In this document: positions 51,407 through 55,388 of the stretch, in pieces
How the letters are laid out: each line of letters begins with the position of its first letter
Numbering within the stretch: the first letter of the stretch is position 1
Assembly: GCF_039655875.1 (NCBI RefSeq)
Contig: NZ_JBBYXK010000001.1
Coordinates: 124,001 to 188,000, forward strand
DNA from: Emcibacter sp. SYSU 3D8
GTDB taxonomy: Bacteria; Pseudomonadota; Alphaproteobacteria; SMXS01
Length of the DNA stretch: 64,000 nt
Direction: 5' to 3'
Translations under genes and position numbers: made by a program
The notes under the pieces: model-generated
The model's database searches: none
Seen by the model: only the letters and a program-made list of their open reading frames with translations
Told to the model about the DNA's origin: nothing

Positions 51407-51453
51407 CATCTTCCCTCGCATCGACGAGGGCGCATGTTAGCAGACCGGACGGC

Positions 51454-52351
51454 TCAGCCCAGCCCCAGATGCGGGCCGACGGCCGTCAGCGAGCCGGGAG
51501 AGACCGGCGTAAGCTGGACCCGGTCGAAGCCGAGGTCTTCCAGATCGAGCAGCGCCTGCGCCACGTTTTCGGGCTGACCGACAAAACGCGAAAAAGAAGT
51601 TGCCGCCCAGCGCCGTCTCCATGCCGCGCACCCTAGGGTCGTCGCCGGCGGCGATCATGATATAGGTGCCGATGGGCACGTCCTCGCGCACCGCGCGGGC
51701 CCTGGCAACAGCCTCGCGGACTTCGTGCTCGGTGATGCTGGCATAGGCCGCCATGTCGAGCGCGCCGCCGCGCAGCGCCCGGCCACTCGCCGTGATCTCC
51801 AGCCGGTCAACCAGCGGCGTGATTTCGCGCAGCGCCCGCGGCCCGCTGGCCGAGCCGATCAGGTCGGGCGGCGGATCCATCACACAGGCCATCCGCGGGT
51901 CGGTGATGTCGATGTTGTAATACTCGCCCTTGAAGCGGCAGGTGCCGGTGCGCAGCAGGTCGCGCACGATCACCAGCGCCTCGCGGTACATGCTGACGCG
52001 GGTCGGGCCATCAGGAAACACGCGCCCCGTGGCGGTCATTTCCTGGCACATCCAGCCGGCACCCAAACCCGGTTCGAACCGGCCGCCCGACAACCAGTTG
52101 AGTGTCAGGCTGGCCTGGGCGAACTCTACCGGCGAACGGAACAGGTTGTTGGCGAAGGAGGACGTCAGACGGATGCGAGTTGTCGCGGCGGCCATGGCCG
52201 ACAGCACCACGAATACGTGTGGATAGACGGTCTGGCCTACCCATAGATGATCGCTGGCGCAGATGCCGTGCCAGCCTTCGGCCTCGCGCTCGCGCGCCCA
52301 GTCGGCGGGGTTGCCGGCGAGCGGCATGGGAAGGTTGGCAAAGAATTCCAT
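51454..52351 (-). CDS. LLM-class flavin-dependent oxidoreductase with a C-terminal frameshift
   Basis: A luciferase-like (F420/FMN-dependent) monooxygenase of about 298 residues if corrected. The N-terminal part (MEFFANLPMPLAGNPADWAREREAEGW, SDHLWVGQTVYPHVF) and GLGAGWMCQEMTATGRVF are typical. Near residue 250 the frame runs through five Ts on the minus strand (51591-51595) and then reads nonsense (ARKRGAGAARSGRP) to a stop at 51437. Removing one base restores FVGQPENVAQALLDLEDLGF and a stop at 51454, the expected family ending. It is either a sequencing error in the homopolymer or a genuine recent inactivation. It lies just downstream of the P450 gene on the same strand, nine bases away, suggesting one oxidative pathway. 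Confidence 0.85.
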
Positions 52352-52360
52352 GACGTGCCC

Positions 52361-53569
52361 TCAGGCTGGGTGCAGATGCACGGGCAGACGTTCGATGCAC
52401 CGCACCAGAGCGTTGGGAGAGCGTTCCATGGGACCGGTCAGTTCGATGGTCTTCACCCGGTCGCACAGGCCGTTGATGAATACGCCGATCATCAGCCGCG
52501 CCAGATGGGCGCCCAGGCATTTGTGAATGCCCTCGGTGAAGCTGAGATGGTCCGCGTCGCCGACGCCGCGGGGGAACCGGTCCAGGCGGAATTCGCCGGG
52601 GTTTTCATAGTGACTCGGGTCATGGTTGCCGGACGCGTAGAGCAGGAGGACCTTGACGTCGGACGGGATCACCGTGCCATTGAGGTCATATTCCGACAGC
52701 GTGTTACGGAACAGGCCCTGCACCGGTGACAGGTAGCGTAGCAGTTCCTCGGTGGCGGCAGGCACCAGGCGGCGATCGGCCCGGATGGTCTCGAAGATAT
52801 CTGGTTGTTCCGCCAGGAAACCGGCCACGGCGGACAGAAACTGGGCCGTGGTCTCGTTGCCCCCGACGGCAAGCAGAGCCAGCATCTGCGCGGTCTCATC
52901 ATGAGTCAGTTCGTAGCCATCCGGCGTCGGTGTGAACAACGCATCGCTCAGGGTACGCAGCTGGCCGGGGCAGAAAGCGCCGGCATCGCGTGCCGCCTCC
53001 TGCTGCAGCGCCATGGCGTCGAAATAGCGGCCGAAGCAGGCGAGCGTCTTGACGGGTTCGTCGGAAAAATCGCCTGCCATCACCAGCGAAGCTGCCGTGG
53101 CGCCGTCATTGACGAACTTGATGTCGGTCGGGGGAATGCCCATCCACTCGCCGACCAGCCGGGCGAGGAACGGCATGGAAATTTTCTGCGCCAGGTTGGC
53201 GCCGGGCACGTCGATGATTTCGTCCAGCAACTCATTCAGAAGAGCTTCGGCGCGCATCTTGTGCTGGCCCACCGATGCGCGCGAGAAGTGCTGCAGCATC
53301 TGTCGGCGCAGCGTTGTGTGGTGCGGCCGGTCGATTCCGGTCAGGCCGAGCCCCGACTTGTTCCGGCTATAGCCGACGCCCTCGTCATTCGAGAACACCT
53401 TGTCGTCCCGCACCACCTCGGCGATGTCCGCATAGCGGCTGATCGCCCAGATGCCCTCGCTTTCCACGTGATGAACCGGCGAATGCTCGCGCAGCCAGAC
53501 ATAGGCAGGATAGGGGTCATCGATCAGTTCGGGCAGATGCGGTGTGTAGTGGTACCAGTTCATGGTCAT
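52361..53569 (-). CDS. cytochrome P450
   Basis: A 402-residue bacterial P450. The heme-cysteine motif is FTEGIHKCLG (Cys351), the I-helix is AVGGNETTAQF, and the ExxR is in EELLR (275-278). It resembles CYP families that hydroxylate sterols, terpenoids, acids or alkanes; the exact family cannot be assigned. The ATG at 53569 follows GGAGTGGAGCA. It is divergent from a TetR regulator and a Rieske ferredoxin, with an operator palindrome over both promoters, so inducible control by its substrate is plausible. The flavin monooxygenase follows it on the same strand. Confidence 0.92.
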   Translation of the reverse strand: MTMNWYHYTPHLPELIDDPYPAYVWLREHSPVHHVESEGIWAISRYADIAEVVRDDKVFSNDEGVGYSRNKSGLGLTGIDRPHHTTLRRQMLQHFSRASVGQHKMRAEALLNELLDEIIDVPGANLAQKISMPFLARLVGEWMGIPPTDIKFVNDGATAASLVMAGDFSDEPVKTLACFGRYFDAMALQQEAARDAGAFCPGQLRTLSDALFTPTPDGYELTHDETAQMLALLAVGGNETTAQFLSAVAGFLAEQPDIFETIRADRRLVPAATEELLRYLSPVQGLFRNTLSEYDLNGTVIPSDVKVLLLYASGNHDPSHYENPGEFRLDRFPRGVGDADHLSFTEGIHKCLGAHLARLMIGVFINGLCDRVKTIELTGPMERSPNALVRCIERLPVHLHPA

Positions 53570-53589
53570 TGCTCCACTCCCAGAGTCCG

Positions 53590-53618
53590 TTGACACCTTT
53601 TATTTGAGTTAGTAATAA
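53590..53618 (+). promoter_or_regulatory. promoter of the tetR-Rieske ferredoxin operon
   Basis: TTGACA (53590-53595) and TAATAA (53613-53618) are separated by 17 bp, a near-consensus sigma-70 promoter and the best-scoring one I noticed by eye in the window. The -10 element lies inside the GTTAGT-AATA-ACTAAC palindrome. Confidence 0.7.
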
Positions 53619-53625
53619 CTAACAA
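53597..53625 (-). promoter_or_regulatory. candidate divergent promoter of the P450 gene
   Basis: On the minus strand TTGTTA (53620-53625) and TAAAAG (53597-53602) are separated by 17 bp. The palindrome fills the spacer and touches the -35 element, so one bound repressor would block both directions. Confidence 0.5.
53608..53623. promoter_or_regulatory. palindromic TetR-family operator candidate
   Basis: GTTAGT-AATA-ACTAAC is a perfect 6-4-6 inverted repeat between the P450 and TetR genes. It overlaps the -10 of the rightward promoter and the spacer of the leftward one. The adjacent TetR regulator is the natural candidate to bind it. Confidence 0.65.
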
Positions 53626-53633
53626 GCATTGGA

Positions 53634-54254
53634 ATGATCATGACCAGAATTATCGAACCGGTATCGCGCGGCGTCGGCACCCGGCATCGAATTATCGCCG
53701 AGGCGAGCCAACTGATCGCAGAACGCGGCTATCGTGAAACCACGATGAAAGCGGTGGGCGAGCGCGTTGGGGTGACCGAACCAGCGGTCTATCGCCACTT
53801 CGAGAGCAAGGCGCAGCTGCTCGTCACTGTTTTCACCGAGGCGGTGGCACAGTCGCCGCTGTCGCGGCATGACGCGCGCGGCGCCGTCGAGACCCTTCCG
53901 GAATCAGCCGCGCTTCTGACGGCGGCGGATTTCCACATGCTGCGACGGCTGATCGGCGAAATGTACTCGGCGGCAGCCATCGATCCGGACGTGGCCGCGT
54001 TGGCCCGCAATTTCGTGACCGGAGCCGCCGAGCGGCTGAAGCAGGGCCTCGCGGACAGCATCGCCCATGGCGAGCTGCCAGCGGGCATGAACCCCCTCTA
54101 CATGCAAAGCTTTATCCATATCTTCATGGCAGGGCTGGCTCATCACGAGGCACTTGCAGGTGATCTAGTTGGCGACCCGGGCTGGGCGCTTTTCGTGGCC
54201 AACGCCGTCCGTCACCTGCTGCGTATGGATGAGGGGGATCGTTCGGGTGAGTAG
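53634..54254 (+). CDS. TetR-family transcriptional regulator
   Basis: A 206-residue TetR repressor. The DNA-binding helix-turn-helix is in ERGYRETTMKAVGERVGVTEPAVYRHFESKAQLL. The C-terminal ligand-binding half has no named family. A second start codon six bases further (MTRIIEP) is possible given the short leader. It controls, by position, the P450 and its own operon with the ferredoxin, whose start overlaps its stop by eight bases. Ligand unknown. Confidence 0.92.
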   Translation: MIMTRIIEPVSRGVGTRHRIIAEASQLIAERGYRETTMKAVGERVGVTEPAVYRHFESKAQLLVTVFTEAVAQSPLSRHDARGAVETLPESAALLTAADFHMLRRLIGEMYSAAAIDPDVAALARNFVTGAAERLKQGLADSIAHGELPAGMNPLYMQSFIHIFMAGLAHHEALAGDLVGDPGWALFVANAVRHLLRMDEGDRSGE

Positions 54255-54561
54255 CTGGATCTGGGCCGCCAGACTCGACGATCTGACCGAGGACCGGGTC
54301 AATATGGTCACGGTCGGCAGCCGGACCCTGGCGCTCTACCTGATCGACAGCAAGGTGCACGCGACCAGCGGCCATTGCCCGCATGAGGGGCAATGCCTGG
54401 ACAGCGGATTTGTCGAGCAGGGGACGGTGGAATGCGCGCTGCATTATGCGGTATTCGACATTGGTACCGGTGCCCTAATATCGGGCCCTACAACCGGATC
54501 GTTGCCTGTCTATCCTGTCCGAGTCGATGGAGATGACGTGTTCGTCTGCGTGGTTCCGTAG
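54247..54561 (+). CDS. Rieske-type [2Fe-2S] ferredoxin
   Basis: A 104-residue soluble Rieske protein starting with GTG. Cluster ligands are Cys44 and His46 (GHCPHEG) and Cys63 and His66 (ECALHYAVF). It resembles the ferredoxin component of Rieske oxygenases (BphF/NdoA type) rather than the adrenodoxin-type ferredoxins that usually serve P450s. It is in one operon with the TetR gene and divergent from the P450, so it is the likely electron donor to the P450 or the flavin enzyme; the reductase is not here. Confidence 0.88.
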   Translation: MSSWIWAARLDDLTEDRVNMVTVGSRTLALYLIDSKVHATSGHCPHEGQCLDSGFVEQGTVECALHYAVFDIGTGALISGPTTGSLPVYPVRVDGDDVFVCVVP

Positions 54562-54562
54562 A

Positions 54563-54847
54563 TTATGCCTGCGCCATTTCGGAGTGGACAACCCCGGCGT
54601 CGCGGCGAGGCTCGTCAACCAATTGGCCGGGCAGACGCCTGACAACGTAATGGCGCTGGTCGGTAAAAGGGCCGGTGATCGAATAGGGACGGGTCATTCG
54701 CCAATGTTCGGCATATTGGCGTGCGGCCGCGGCACTGTCGGCGGCGACGATCATGCGGCGAAAGGGCGTCAGGTCACCAACCCGCGCGGTGCGGGGCTCG
54801 ATCAGCCAATGAGAGATTGCGGCGGCGAAATTTTCCCCGGTGCTCAT
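54563..54847 (-). CDS. hypothetical protein (94 aa)
   Basis: A short frame opposite the end of the ferredoxin gene, with GGGAAG upstream of the ATG at 54847. The product is cytoplasmic in character, with DLTPFRRMIVAADSAAAARQY and a proline-rich middle (SITGPFTDQRHYVV). No family recognised. The protein-like composition and the tight convergence with the ferredoxin support it, but conservation is not shown. Confidence 0.45.
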   Translation of the reverse strand: MSTGENFAAAISHWLIEPRTARVGDLTPFRRMIVAADSAAAARQYAEHWRMTRPYSITGPFTDQRHYVVRRLPGQLVDEPRRDAGVVHSEMAQA

Positions 54848-55052
54848 GATAGTCTTCCCGTAATTGACGTGATACGCCGAGTGAAAATGCGGCGAGGCTT
54901 CGATAACCAGCGAGGCGCCGGTTCGTTCCCCGTCGAGTGTCTTTATGAATGGGAAAATTGGCGCAGTTATGGCGCCGGGACGGTCAATGAGACCGTCACA
55001 AAAACTTCAAACGCGGCAAGGTGATAGGGCCCGGAGGTAAACGGGGCTAGTT

Positions 55053-55388
55053 TCAGATCGAGAACGAACTGCCGCAACCGCAGGACGACGTGGCGTTCGG
55101 GTTGACGATCTGGAAACTCGAGCCGATCACGTCCTCGACAAAGTCGATGGCGGCGCCGGCCAGGTAGAGCTGGGACATGGCATCGATCAGCACCACGGCA
55201 CCGTCCTTCTCGATGATGAGGTCGTCGTCCTGCCGGGCGTCGTCGAAGGTGAAGTCATACCGAAAGCCCGAGCAGCCGCCGCCATTGACGGCGACTCGCA
55301 ATGCCGTGTCACCGCCGTCGTCCTTGATCAGGGCGGCGATGCGCCGGGCGGCGCTTTCCGTGACGGATACCAGTTGCGACTCGCTCAT
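55053..55388 (-). CDS. erpA: iron-sulfur cluster insertion protein (HesB/IscA/ErpA family)
   Basis: A 111-residue A-type carrier that delivers Fe-S clusters to target enzymes. The three conserved cysteines are Cys39 (GGGCSGFRY) and Cys103/Cys105 (SCGCGSSF). The style (VSVTESAARRIAALI, acidic stretch DDARQDDDL) is ErpA-like. It stands alone and is divergent from dgt. Many Fe-S users are in the window (ilvD, queE, Rieske proteins). Confidence 0.9.
   Translation of the reverse strand: MSESQLVSVTESAARRIAALIKDDGGDTALRVAVNGGGCSGFRYDFTFDDARQDDDLIIEKDGAVVLIDAMSQLYLAGAAIDFVEDVIGSSFQIVNPNATSSCGCGSSFSI

Follow-up and report, generated by a model that had tools for sequence, protein, structure and literature searches.

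In a stretch of 64,000 nucleotides from the genome of Emcibacter sp. SYSU 3D8 (G000:C1:124001-188000, hereafter referred to as the window; the genome, G000, comprises 4,066,951 bases, or 4.07 Mb, in 17 contigs), a gene for a cytochrome P450 is divergent from an operon coding for a TetR-family regulator and a Rieske-type [2Fe-2S] ferredoxin, and the region between these two arms contains a perfect palindrome. Based upon comparison of sequences with related genomes (G001 to G008 below), the identities of these genes, their layout, the conservation of the predicted operator and its pairing with the TetR protein are established, and there is a high probability that the switch is real and that the module represents an inducible P450 unit of the CamR type. 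The interpretation that we favor, to which we give somewhat better than an even chance, is that a CamR-like inducible P450 module has recruited a Rieske ferredoxin of the dioxygenase type and that electrons pass from this ferredoxin to the P450.

The Divergent Module and Its Predicted Operator

The leftward arm of the module consists of the P450 gene (52361..53569, minus strand), which codes for 402 aa when read from the ATG at 53569 and for 400 aa when the ATG at 53563 is used, and of the gene for a luciferase-like (LLM) flavin monooxygenase (51437..52351, minus strand; Bac_luciferase, 1.7e-28), which is located 9 bp downstream of it. The P450 translation matches the Pfam p450 family (PF00067, 1.6e-24), and it contains the heme loop FTEGIHKCLG, the I-helix sequence GGNETT and the sequence EELLR, which we take to be the catalytic motifs of a P450 (the Cys of the heme loop, the Thr of the I-helix and the ExxR motif, respectively). 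The rightward arm consists of tetR (53634..54254, plus strand; 206 aa; TetR_N, PF00440, 1.6e-16) and the gene for the Rieske-type ferredoxin (54247..54561, plus strand; 104 aa; Pfam Rieske, 4.8e-16), whose GTG start, as judged by eye, overlaps the stop codon of tetR; an overlap of these two genes is present in both G000 and the related genome G004. When the ATG at 53569 is taken as the start of the P450, a gap of 64 bp separates it from tetR. The Pfam matches, this gap and the overlap of tetR with the ferredoxin gene bear out an earlier sequence-only reading of the window, in which the P450 was described as divergent from a tetR-Rieske ferredoxin operon. Among the models listed, the curated cut-offs of NCBIfam were passed by none of the P450, the LLM protein or the ferredoxin (for the LLM protein, the best 25 of 26 models).

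The ferredoxin shows the motif CPHEGQCLDSGFVEQGTVECALH, in which both Cys-His pairs are present, and it has the pattern CxH-x(15-19)-CxxH in a protein of ~100 aa without any other domains. It is acidic (D+E 13 vs. K+R 5) and its nearest solved structure is that of the naphthalene dioxygenase ferredoxin (2qpz, 4.8e-17). The ferredoxins of the naphthalene, biphenyl and toluene dioxygenases resemble it in size and in the Rieske motif, and they constitute its best structural matches.

The gap between the P450 and tetR contains the predicted TetR operator GTTAGT-AATA-ACTAAC (53608..53623, no strand), which, as had been noted earlier, is a perfect palindrome. With up to one mismatch, this palindrome has a single match in the 4,066,951 bases of G000, where a reversed control pattern gives five, and its exact form was found in two of 96 related genomes (G000 and G004), each time at the P450-tetR junction. 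The 22-bp footprint TTGAGTTAGTAATAACTAACAA (53604..53625, no strand) is identical at 22/22 bp in G004, and the remainder of the intergenic region around it shows substitutions and gaps between the two genomes. Due to its uniqueness in G000, its complete conservation in G004 and its restriction to this junction in both genomes, the palindrome is more than a chance feature.

Further evidence for its role comes from the homologues of the regulator. A search of 13 genomes (E<=1e-10) detected four TetR homologues, viz. those of G000, G004, G006 (53%), and G003 (48%). The G006 and G003 proteins are encoded at another locus, unrelated to the P450, where the related site GTTAGC-AGTA-GCTAAC is present upstream of each gene (L214 6708-6723 and L215 6975-6990, respectively, both of the form GTTAGC-N4-GCTAAC) and where the gene divergent from the regulator codes for at least 900 aa, presumably a PEP-synthase/phosphotransferase relative. 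A site of the form GTTAGY-N4-RCTAAC is present close upstream of all four homologues, and GTTAGYNNNNRCTAAC marks exactly these four sites in 215 loci plus the window (1,358,823 bases with overlaps; expected frequency ~0.09/Mb at a GC content of 0.64). The Y/R degeneracy of this pattern was chosen after the sites were seen, and the four sites represent two independent loci, since those of G003 and G006 are probably orthologs. The sequence VGVTEPAVYRHF is identical in all four TetR proteins. A plasmid search with the TetR at 1e-12 gave no match. In all four homologues, which come from two loci with two genomes each, a palindromic operator thus travels with a regulator of the TetR_N type. In view of the uniqueness of the palindrome, its conservation in G004 and the related sites upstream of the other homologues, binding of the TetR protein to the palindrome at 53608-53623 is well supported and we consider it very likely. 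The 64-bp gap is also well below the limit in the rule, as given in the available text of its source, that the target of a divergent TetR is a neighbor less than 200 bp away (PMC3511530).

The presence of tetR and the ferredoxin gene in one operon, with overlapping frames, would also fit a different role for the ferredoxin, that of a redox co-sensor for TetR, as suggested for ThnA3 in the regulation of tetralin dioxygenase; a regulatory role for a ferredoxin of a Rieske oxygenase (RO) system has been described in the available text of one report (PMC4814904). We regard this explanation as highly improbable, since the G003 and G006 TetRs have the same kind of operator but the 13-14 kb that were read around them contain neither a P450 nor a Rieske gene, and nothing was found that links the TetR and the ferredoxin physically.

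The palindrome overlaps the candidate promoters of both arms. For the rightward tetR-ferredoxin promoter, the candidate -35 element is the perfect hexamer TTGACA (53590..53595, plus strand), which is also present in G004, where its distance to the palindrome differs by 2 bp. The -10 element at a spacing of 17 bp, scored by hand, is TAATAA (53613-53618), which is located inside the palindrome and matches TATAAT at 3/6 positions; no good -10 element was found at 16-18 bp from TTGACA. For the P450, a candidate leftward promoter (53597..53625, minus strand), also scored by hand, consists of TTGTTA (53625-53620) and TAAAAG (53602-53597) separated by 17 bp, with 8/12 matches, and the palindrome overlaps its -35 element and sits in its spacer. 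A promoter scan at 9/12 listed neither of these candidates, its two listed sites being elsewhere. The overlap of the palindrome with both candidate promoters that was proposed in the sequence-only reading therefore stands, but the term "near-consensus" that was used there is an overstatement in view of these scores and of the scan.

The layout of camR is divergent. In Pseudomonas putida, the camDCAB operon of P450cam, which includes a ferredoxin, is likewise controlled by an autoregulated repressor of the TetR family, CamR (PMC4592980, PMC6352141), and on the CAM plasmid P450cam and flavin-dependent two-component diketocamphane monooxygenases take part in one pathway, according to the available text of these sources (PMC6352141). 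The module differs from the CamR system in that its ferredoxin is of the Rieske type and is part of the repressor's operon. No reductase gene is present in the module, which thus does not show the CamR-type combination of a P450, a ferredoxin and a reductase under one TetR, and its operator has no sequence resemblance to CamO as given in the available text (PMC4592980). Among the papers seen in a search of the open-licence literature, most of them as listings, none describes a P450 that shares a TetR operator with a Rieske ferredoxin.

In the mechanism that we infer for this module, a TetR dimer bound to the palindrome at 53608-53623 would repress both divergent operons, P450-LLM and tetR-Rieske ferredoxin, until a small hydrophobic substrate or its metabolite releases it. 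The P450 would hydroxylate the substrate, and the co-induced Rieske ferredoxin, putatively of RO origin, would carry electrons to the P450 from the reductase encoded on another contig at C5:344-1555. The LLM protein may also have its place in this route and, by analogy with the diketocamphane monooxygenases, might oxygenate a product in an FMNH2-dependent reaction. Of the compact inducible oxidation module that had been proposed from the sequence, control by TetR is supported by the conservation of the operator in G004 and by its recurrence before homologous TetRs, while induction itself is a step that we infer.

Electron Supply to the P450

A Rieske ferredoxin serving a P450 has already been published, in one of the papers found in the open-licence literature, so that there is a precedent for such a pairing. 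In Streptomyces peucetius, the Rieske-type (Cys2His2 [2Fe-2S]) ferredoxin SpFdx4, which is called the natural partner of DoxA, together with SpFdR3 supports DoxA in vitro, with conversion of DOD to 88% DHD and 8% DNR, as stated in the available text of the report (PMC12979805). This system resembles the module in that a bacterial P450 is combined with a Rieske-type ferredoxin, and SpFdR3 is of the putidaredoxin-reductase type. It differs in the organism and the P450, and SpFdx4 comes from a suf cluster, for which the available text describes no linkage to a P450 or a TetR.

The genome G000 contains 37 P450 genes (38 PF00067 matches, two of them in one frame) and 57 Rieske matches, 53 of which are in open frames of at least 306 aa and two in frames of ferredoxin size (<140 aa). 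The single Reductase_C match is to a 403-aa gene of the putidaredoxin-reductase type (C5:344-1555), and it is followed by a gene for a 104-aa ferredoxin whose motif is of the adrenodoxin type (C5:1636-1950). For a genome of 4.07 Mb, this load of oxygenases (P450 genes and Rieske matches, with one Reductase_C match) is unusual. The C5:1636-1950 ferredoxin was missed in a genome search with PF00111 (10 matches), and the ferredoxin counts are based upon motif scans of gene models; ferredoxin motifs that were seen beside five P450s in the six-frame translation only did not correspond to any gene model and were not counted.

The neighborhoods (+/-5.5 kb) of 36 of the 37 P450 genes, viz. those recovered by gene calling, were surveyed. 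The window P450 has the Rieske ferredoxin gene 678 bp away, which is the tightest linkage but one among these 36; one other P450 touches a gene for a 67-aa Cys-rich ferredoxin, and a third has the other Rieske ferredoxin of G000 at a distance of 4.2 kb, near Rieske oxygenases. The P450 could use either the Rieske or the adrenodoxin-type ferredoxin, but linkage and co-regulation favor the former. That the Rieske ferredoxin is the donor of this P450 is the best single reading of these data, and it rests on linkage.

A second explanation, which we consider possible but doubtful, accepts the regulatory unit as real but assigns the Rieske ferredoxin to one or more Rieske oxygenases encoded at other loci, with the P450 fed by the C5 reductase and the adrenodoxin-type ferredoxin and with co-induction joining two steps of a pathway. 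The disproportion in G000 between the 53 large Rieske frames and the two of ferredoxin size is in accord with such a role, as are the location of the other Rieske ferredoxin in a Rieske oxygenase cluster and the availability of an adrenodoxin-type ferredoxin for the P450. Similarly, the nearest solved and plasmid relatives of the window ferredoxin are RO ferredoxins, and in all five plasmid neighborhoods examined (of 210 records) an oxygenase-type Rieske gene was present and no P450 was seen. In three of these plasmids an annotated Rieske oxygenase gene and an FAD-dependent oxidoreductase are located beside the ferredoxin, and in the other two, which are unannotated, a large frame contains a Rieske motif and no P450 was seen. 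However, three-component Rieske oxygenase systems have an alpha subunit, and usually a reductase, linked to the ferredoxin, whereas the module has no adjacent oxygenase or reductase genes and its neighbor is a P450. No RO alpha subunit was found within 5.5 kb of the window P450, and the nearest gene of Rieske oxygenase size is ~19 kb off; a gene of this size is present within 5.5 kb of 10 of the 36 P450s, the window P450 not among them. Additionally, the best score of the ferredoxin against the NCBIfam RO-ferredoxin models is 73.5 bits vs. a curated cut-off of 150, and the operon and operator tie it to the P450 in both intact genomes, with joint breakage in G001.

Distribution and History of the Cassette

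The module is located in the xth-erpA interval (window 51421-55053), which is variable in the genus and contains a full cassette, a partial one, a decayed one or none of the cassette genes. In G004 the full set is intact, with identities of 92, 92, 83, 68, and 73% for LLM (residues 1-257), P450, TetR, Rieske ferredoxin, and orf94, respectively. The record with the G004 module (CALQFM020000016.1, L021) bears the title Candidatus Kuenenia stuttgartiensis, although the genus to which G004 is assigned is that of the window, and the title looks mislabelled. In addition, orf94 (94 aa; window 54563-54847, minus strand) has no Pfam or NCBIfam match and is kept in G000, G001, G002, and G004 at 73-76% identity. 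The cassette of G001 (L041, G001:C22 7400-7800) has decayed through two deletions. Of the P450, residues 27-151 are left; these contain an internal stop and are joined, without a change of frame, to an LLM whose start is missing. The C-terminal half of the ferredoxin (~58-104) is also left, and the TetR is gone. At this site G002 has orf94 alone and G006 the LLM alone. In G003, G007, and G008 the xth and erpA neighbors were found without cassette genes, one unrelated gene lying between them in G007. In G005 (78% complete) no P450 or ferredoxin orthologue was found and the xth-erpA site was not located.

The P450, TetR and ferredoxin genes are thus all present in G000 and G004, all damaged or lost in G001, and all lacking in G002 and G006. 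In a tree based upon three genes, G000 branched apart from G004, with G001 and G002 nearer to G004 (supports 0.88-0.995); G003 was outermost, with weak support (0.51). The simplest reading of this pattern would be a single gain within the genus followed by at least three losses, each of which removed the P450, TetR and ferredoxin genes jointly. Between G000 and G004 the dN/dS ratios are 0.062 for the P450, 0.089 for TetR, 0.168 for the ferredoxin and 0.081 for LLM residues 1-245, and the P450, TetR and ferredoxin are under purifying selection. The dS values of the P450, tetR, ferredoxin and orf94 genes (0.78-1.33) are higher than those found for LLM and for five flanking genes (0.37-0.63), and this may point to a separate history of the cassette.

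The variability of this interval, in which several members have no cassette genes, or orf94 or LLM alone, together with the separate history that is suggested by the dS values, could also be accounted for if an unrelated ferredoxin gene, without any specific partner, had been trapped behind tetR in a rearrangement hotspot between xth and erpA. Such a chance neighborhood appears improbable to us, since the ferredoxin frame overlaps tetR and its dN/dS of 0.168 was obtained from two lineages that do not group in the three-gene tree.

To look for the linkage more widely, the ferredoxin was searched for in 41 relatives, 13 of which gave a match at 1e-10, and in 385 genomes of the class, 38 of which gave one at 1e-14. 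For 42 of the 56 distinct places of matched ferredoxins, loci extending up to 1.5 kb in either direction were available (three of them shortened by contig ends), and P450s were detected in these with a profile built from the P450s of G000. A P450 was located beside the Rieske ferredoxin in 3/42 loci, viz. those of G000, G004, and the G001 remnant. The linkage expected from the sequence-only reading is thus conserved within the genus (two intact and one remnant), but none of the other 39 loci had an adjacent P450 and no linkage was seen outside the genus. Except for the G004 orthologue and the G001 remnant, no relatives of the P450 with >35% identity were found in 96 genomes, and a contig search retrieved only the G004 record (92%) and an Amycolatopsis P450 (28%). 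The P450s in 609 plasmid records are all <60% identical to that of the window, the best among the 15 of 609 listed being at 32.3%. As far as seen, the window ferredoxin appears to derive from RO ferredoxins, and its association with a P450 appears to be confined to this genus.

A number of these observations weigh against the interpretation that we favor. In addition to the weakness of the -10 elements at the operator and the lack of linkage at the other 39 Rieske loci, 33 of the 36 P450s surveyed have no ferredoxin gene model within 5.5 kb, and linkage is therefore not the usual mode of P450 supply in G000; the adrenodoxin-type ferredoxin beside the sole putidaredoxin-reductase-type gene could serve the P450 instead. 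The chance of finding one of two Rieske ferredoxins no more than two genes away from any of 37 P450s is estimated at ~7% (with ~4000 genes assumed). The joint loss of the three genes is weak evidence of function, because any contiguous deletion would have the same effect, and sequence divergence is more rapid in the ferredoxin than in the P450 (68% vs. 92% identity to G004). Lastly, the available text of one source gives a range of +100 to +400 mV for Rieske proteins (PMC6237146), and at such potentials a P450 would not be reduced; those of RO ferredoxins are lower, and BphF is, going by the title of a reference, a low-potential Rieske-type ferredoxin.

Despite these points, recruitment of the Rieske ferredoxin by a CamR-like P450 module remains the interpretation that we favor. 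We would give an even chance to the more specific proposal that a lineage-specific P450 has acquired a Rieske ferredoxin of the RO type for use as its dedicated donor, within the operon of the repressor, so that donor and oxygenase rise together. If this is true, the module would provide a P450-Rieske electron chain that is both genetically linked and regulated, with its empty, partial, intact and decayed forms all in a single genus, and P450s and Rieske oxygenases would be able to swap electron carriers in nature. Along with DoxA-SpFdx4, it would be a reason to look for native P450 partners outside the adrenodoxin-type and [3Fe-4S] ferredoxins as well. The TetR/operator pair, with its four natural sites, is also a ready candidate for a biosensor.

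The LLM Monooxygenase and Paralogous P450-LLM Clusters

In comparison to G004, the LLM gene of the window is frameshifted at its 3' end near 51590, where one extra base in an A/T run scrambles the last ~50 residues; this is either a true mutation or an assembly error. A paralogous cluster of the type TetR | P450-LLM is present in 6/7 members of the genus, G000 counted, with none detected in G001 at E<=1e-40. This cluster resembles the module in its divergent TetR and in the order of P450 followed by LLM, and its LLM proteins are 50-53% identical to that of the module, the P450s only 26-28%. It differs in that no Rieske ferredoxin gene follows tetR and in that its TetRs (~35% identical over 53-71 aa) are without a GTTAGY-N4-RCTAAC site. 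Because the cluster is found in 6/7 members, the P450-LLM pairing is a recurrent one, and this lends support to the earlier suggestion that the LLM protein may belong to the same route as the P450. The conserved clusters are located at L057 (G000:C3:313001-333000), L054, L055, L056, L058, and L059. In 5/6 loci with a contig long enough, the cluster is followed by a gene for a 653-aa oxidoreductase-like protein and a small gene, and it looks catabolic.

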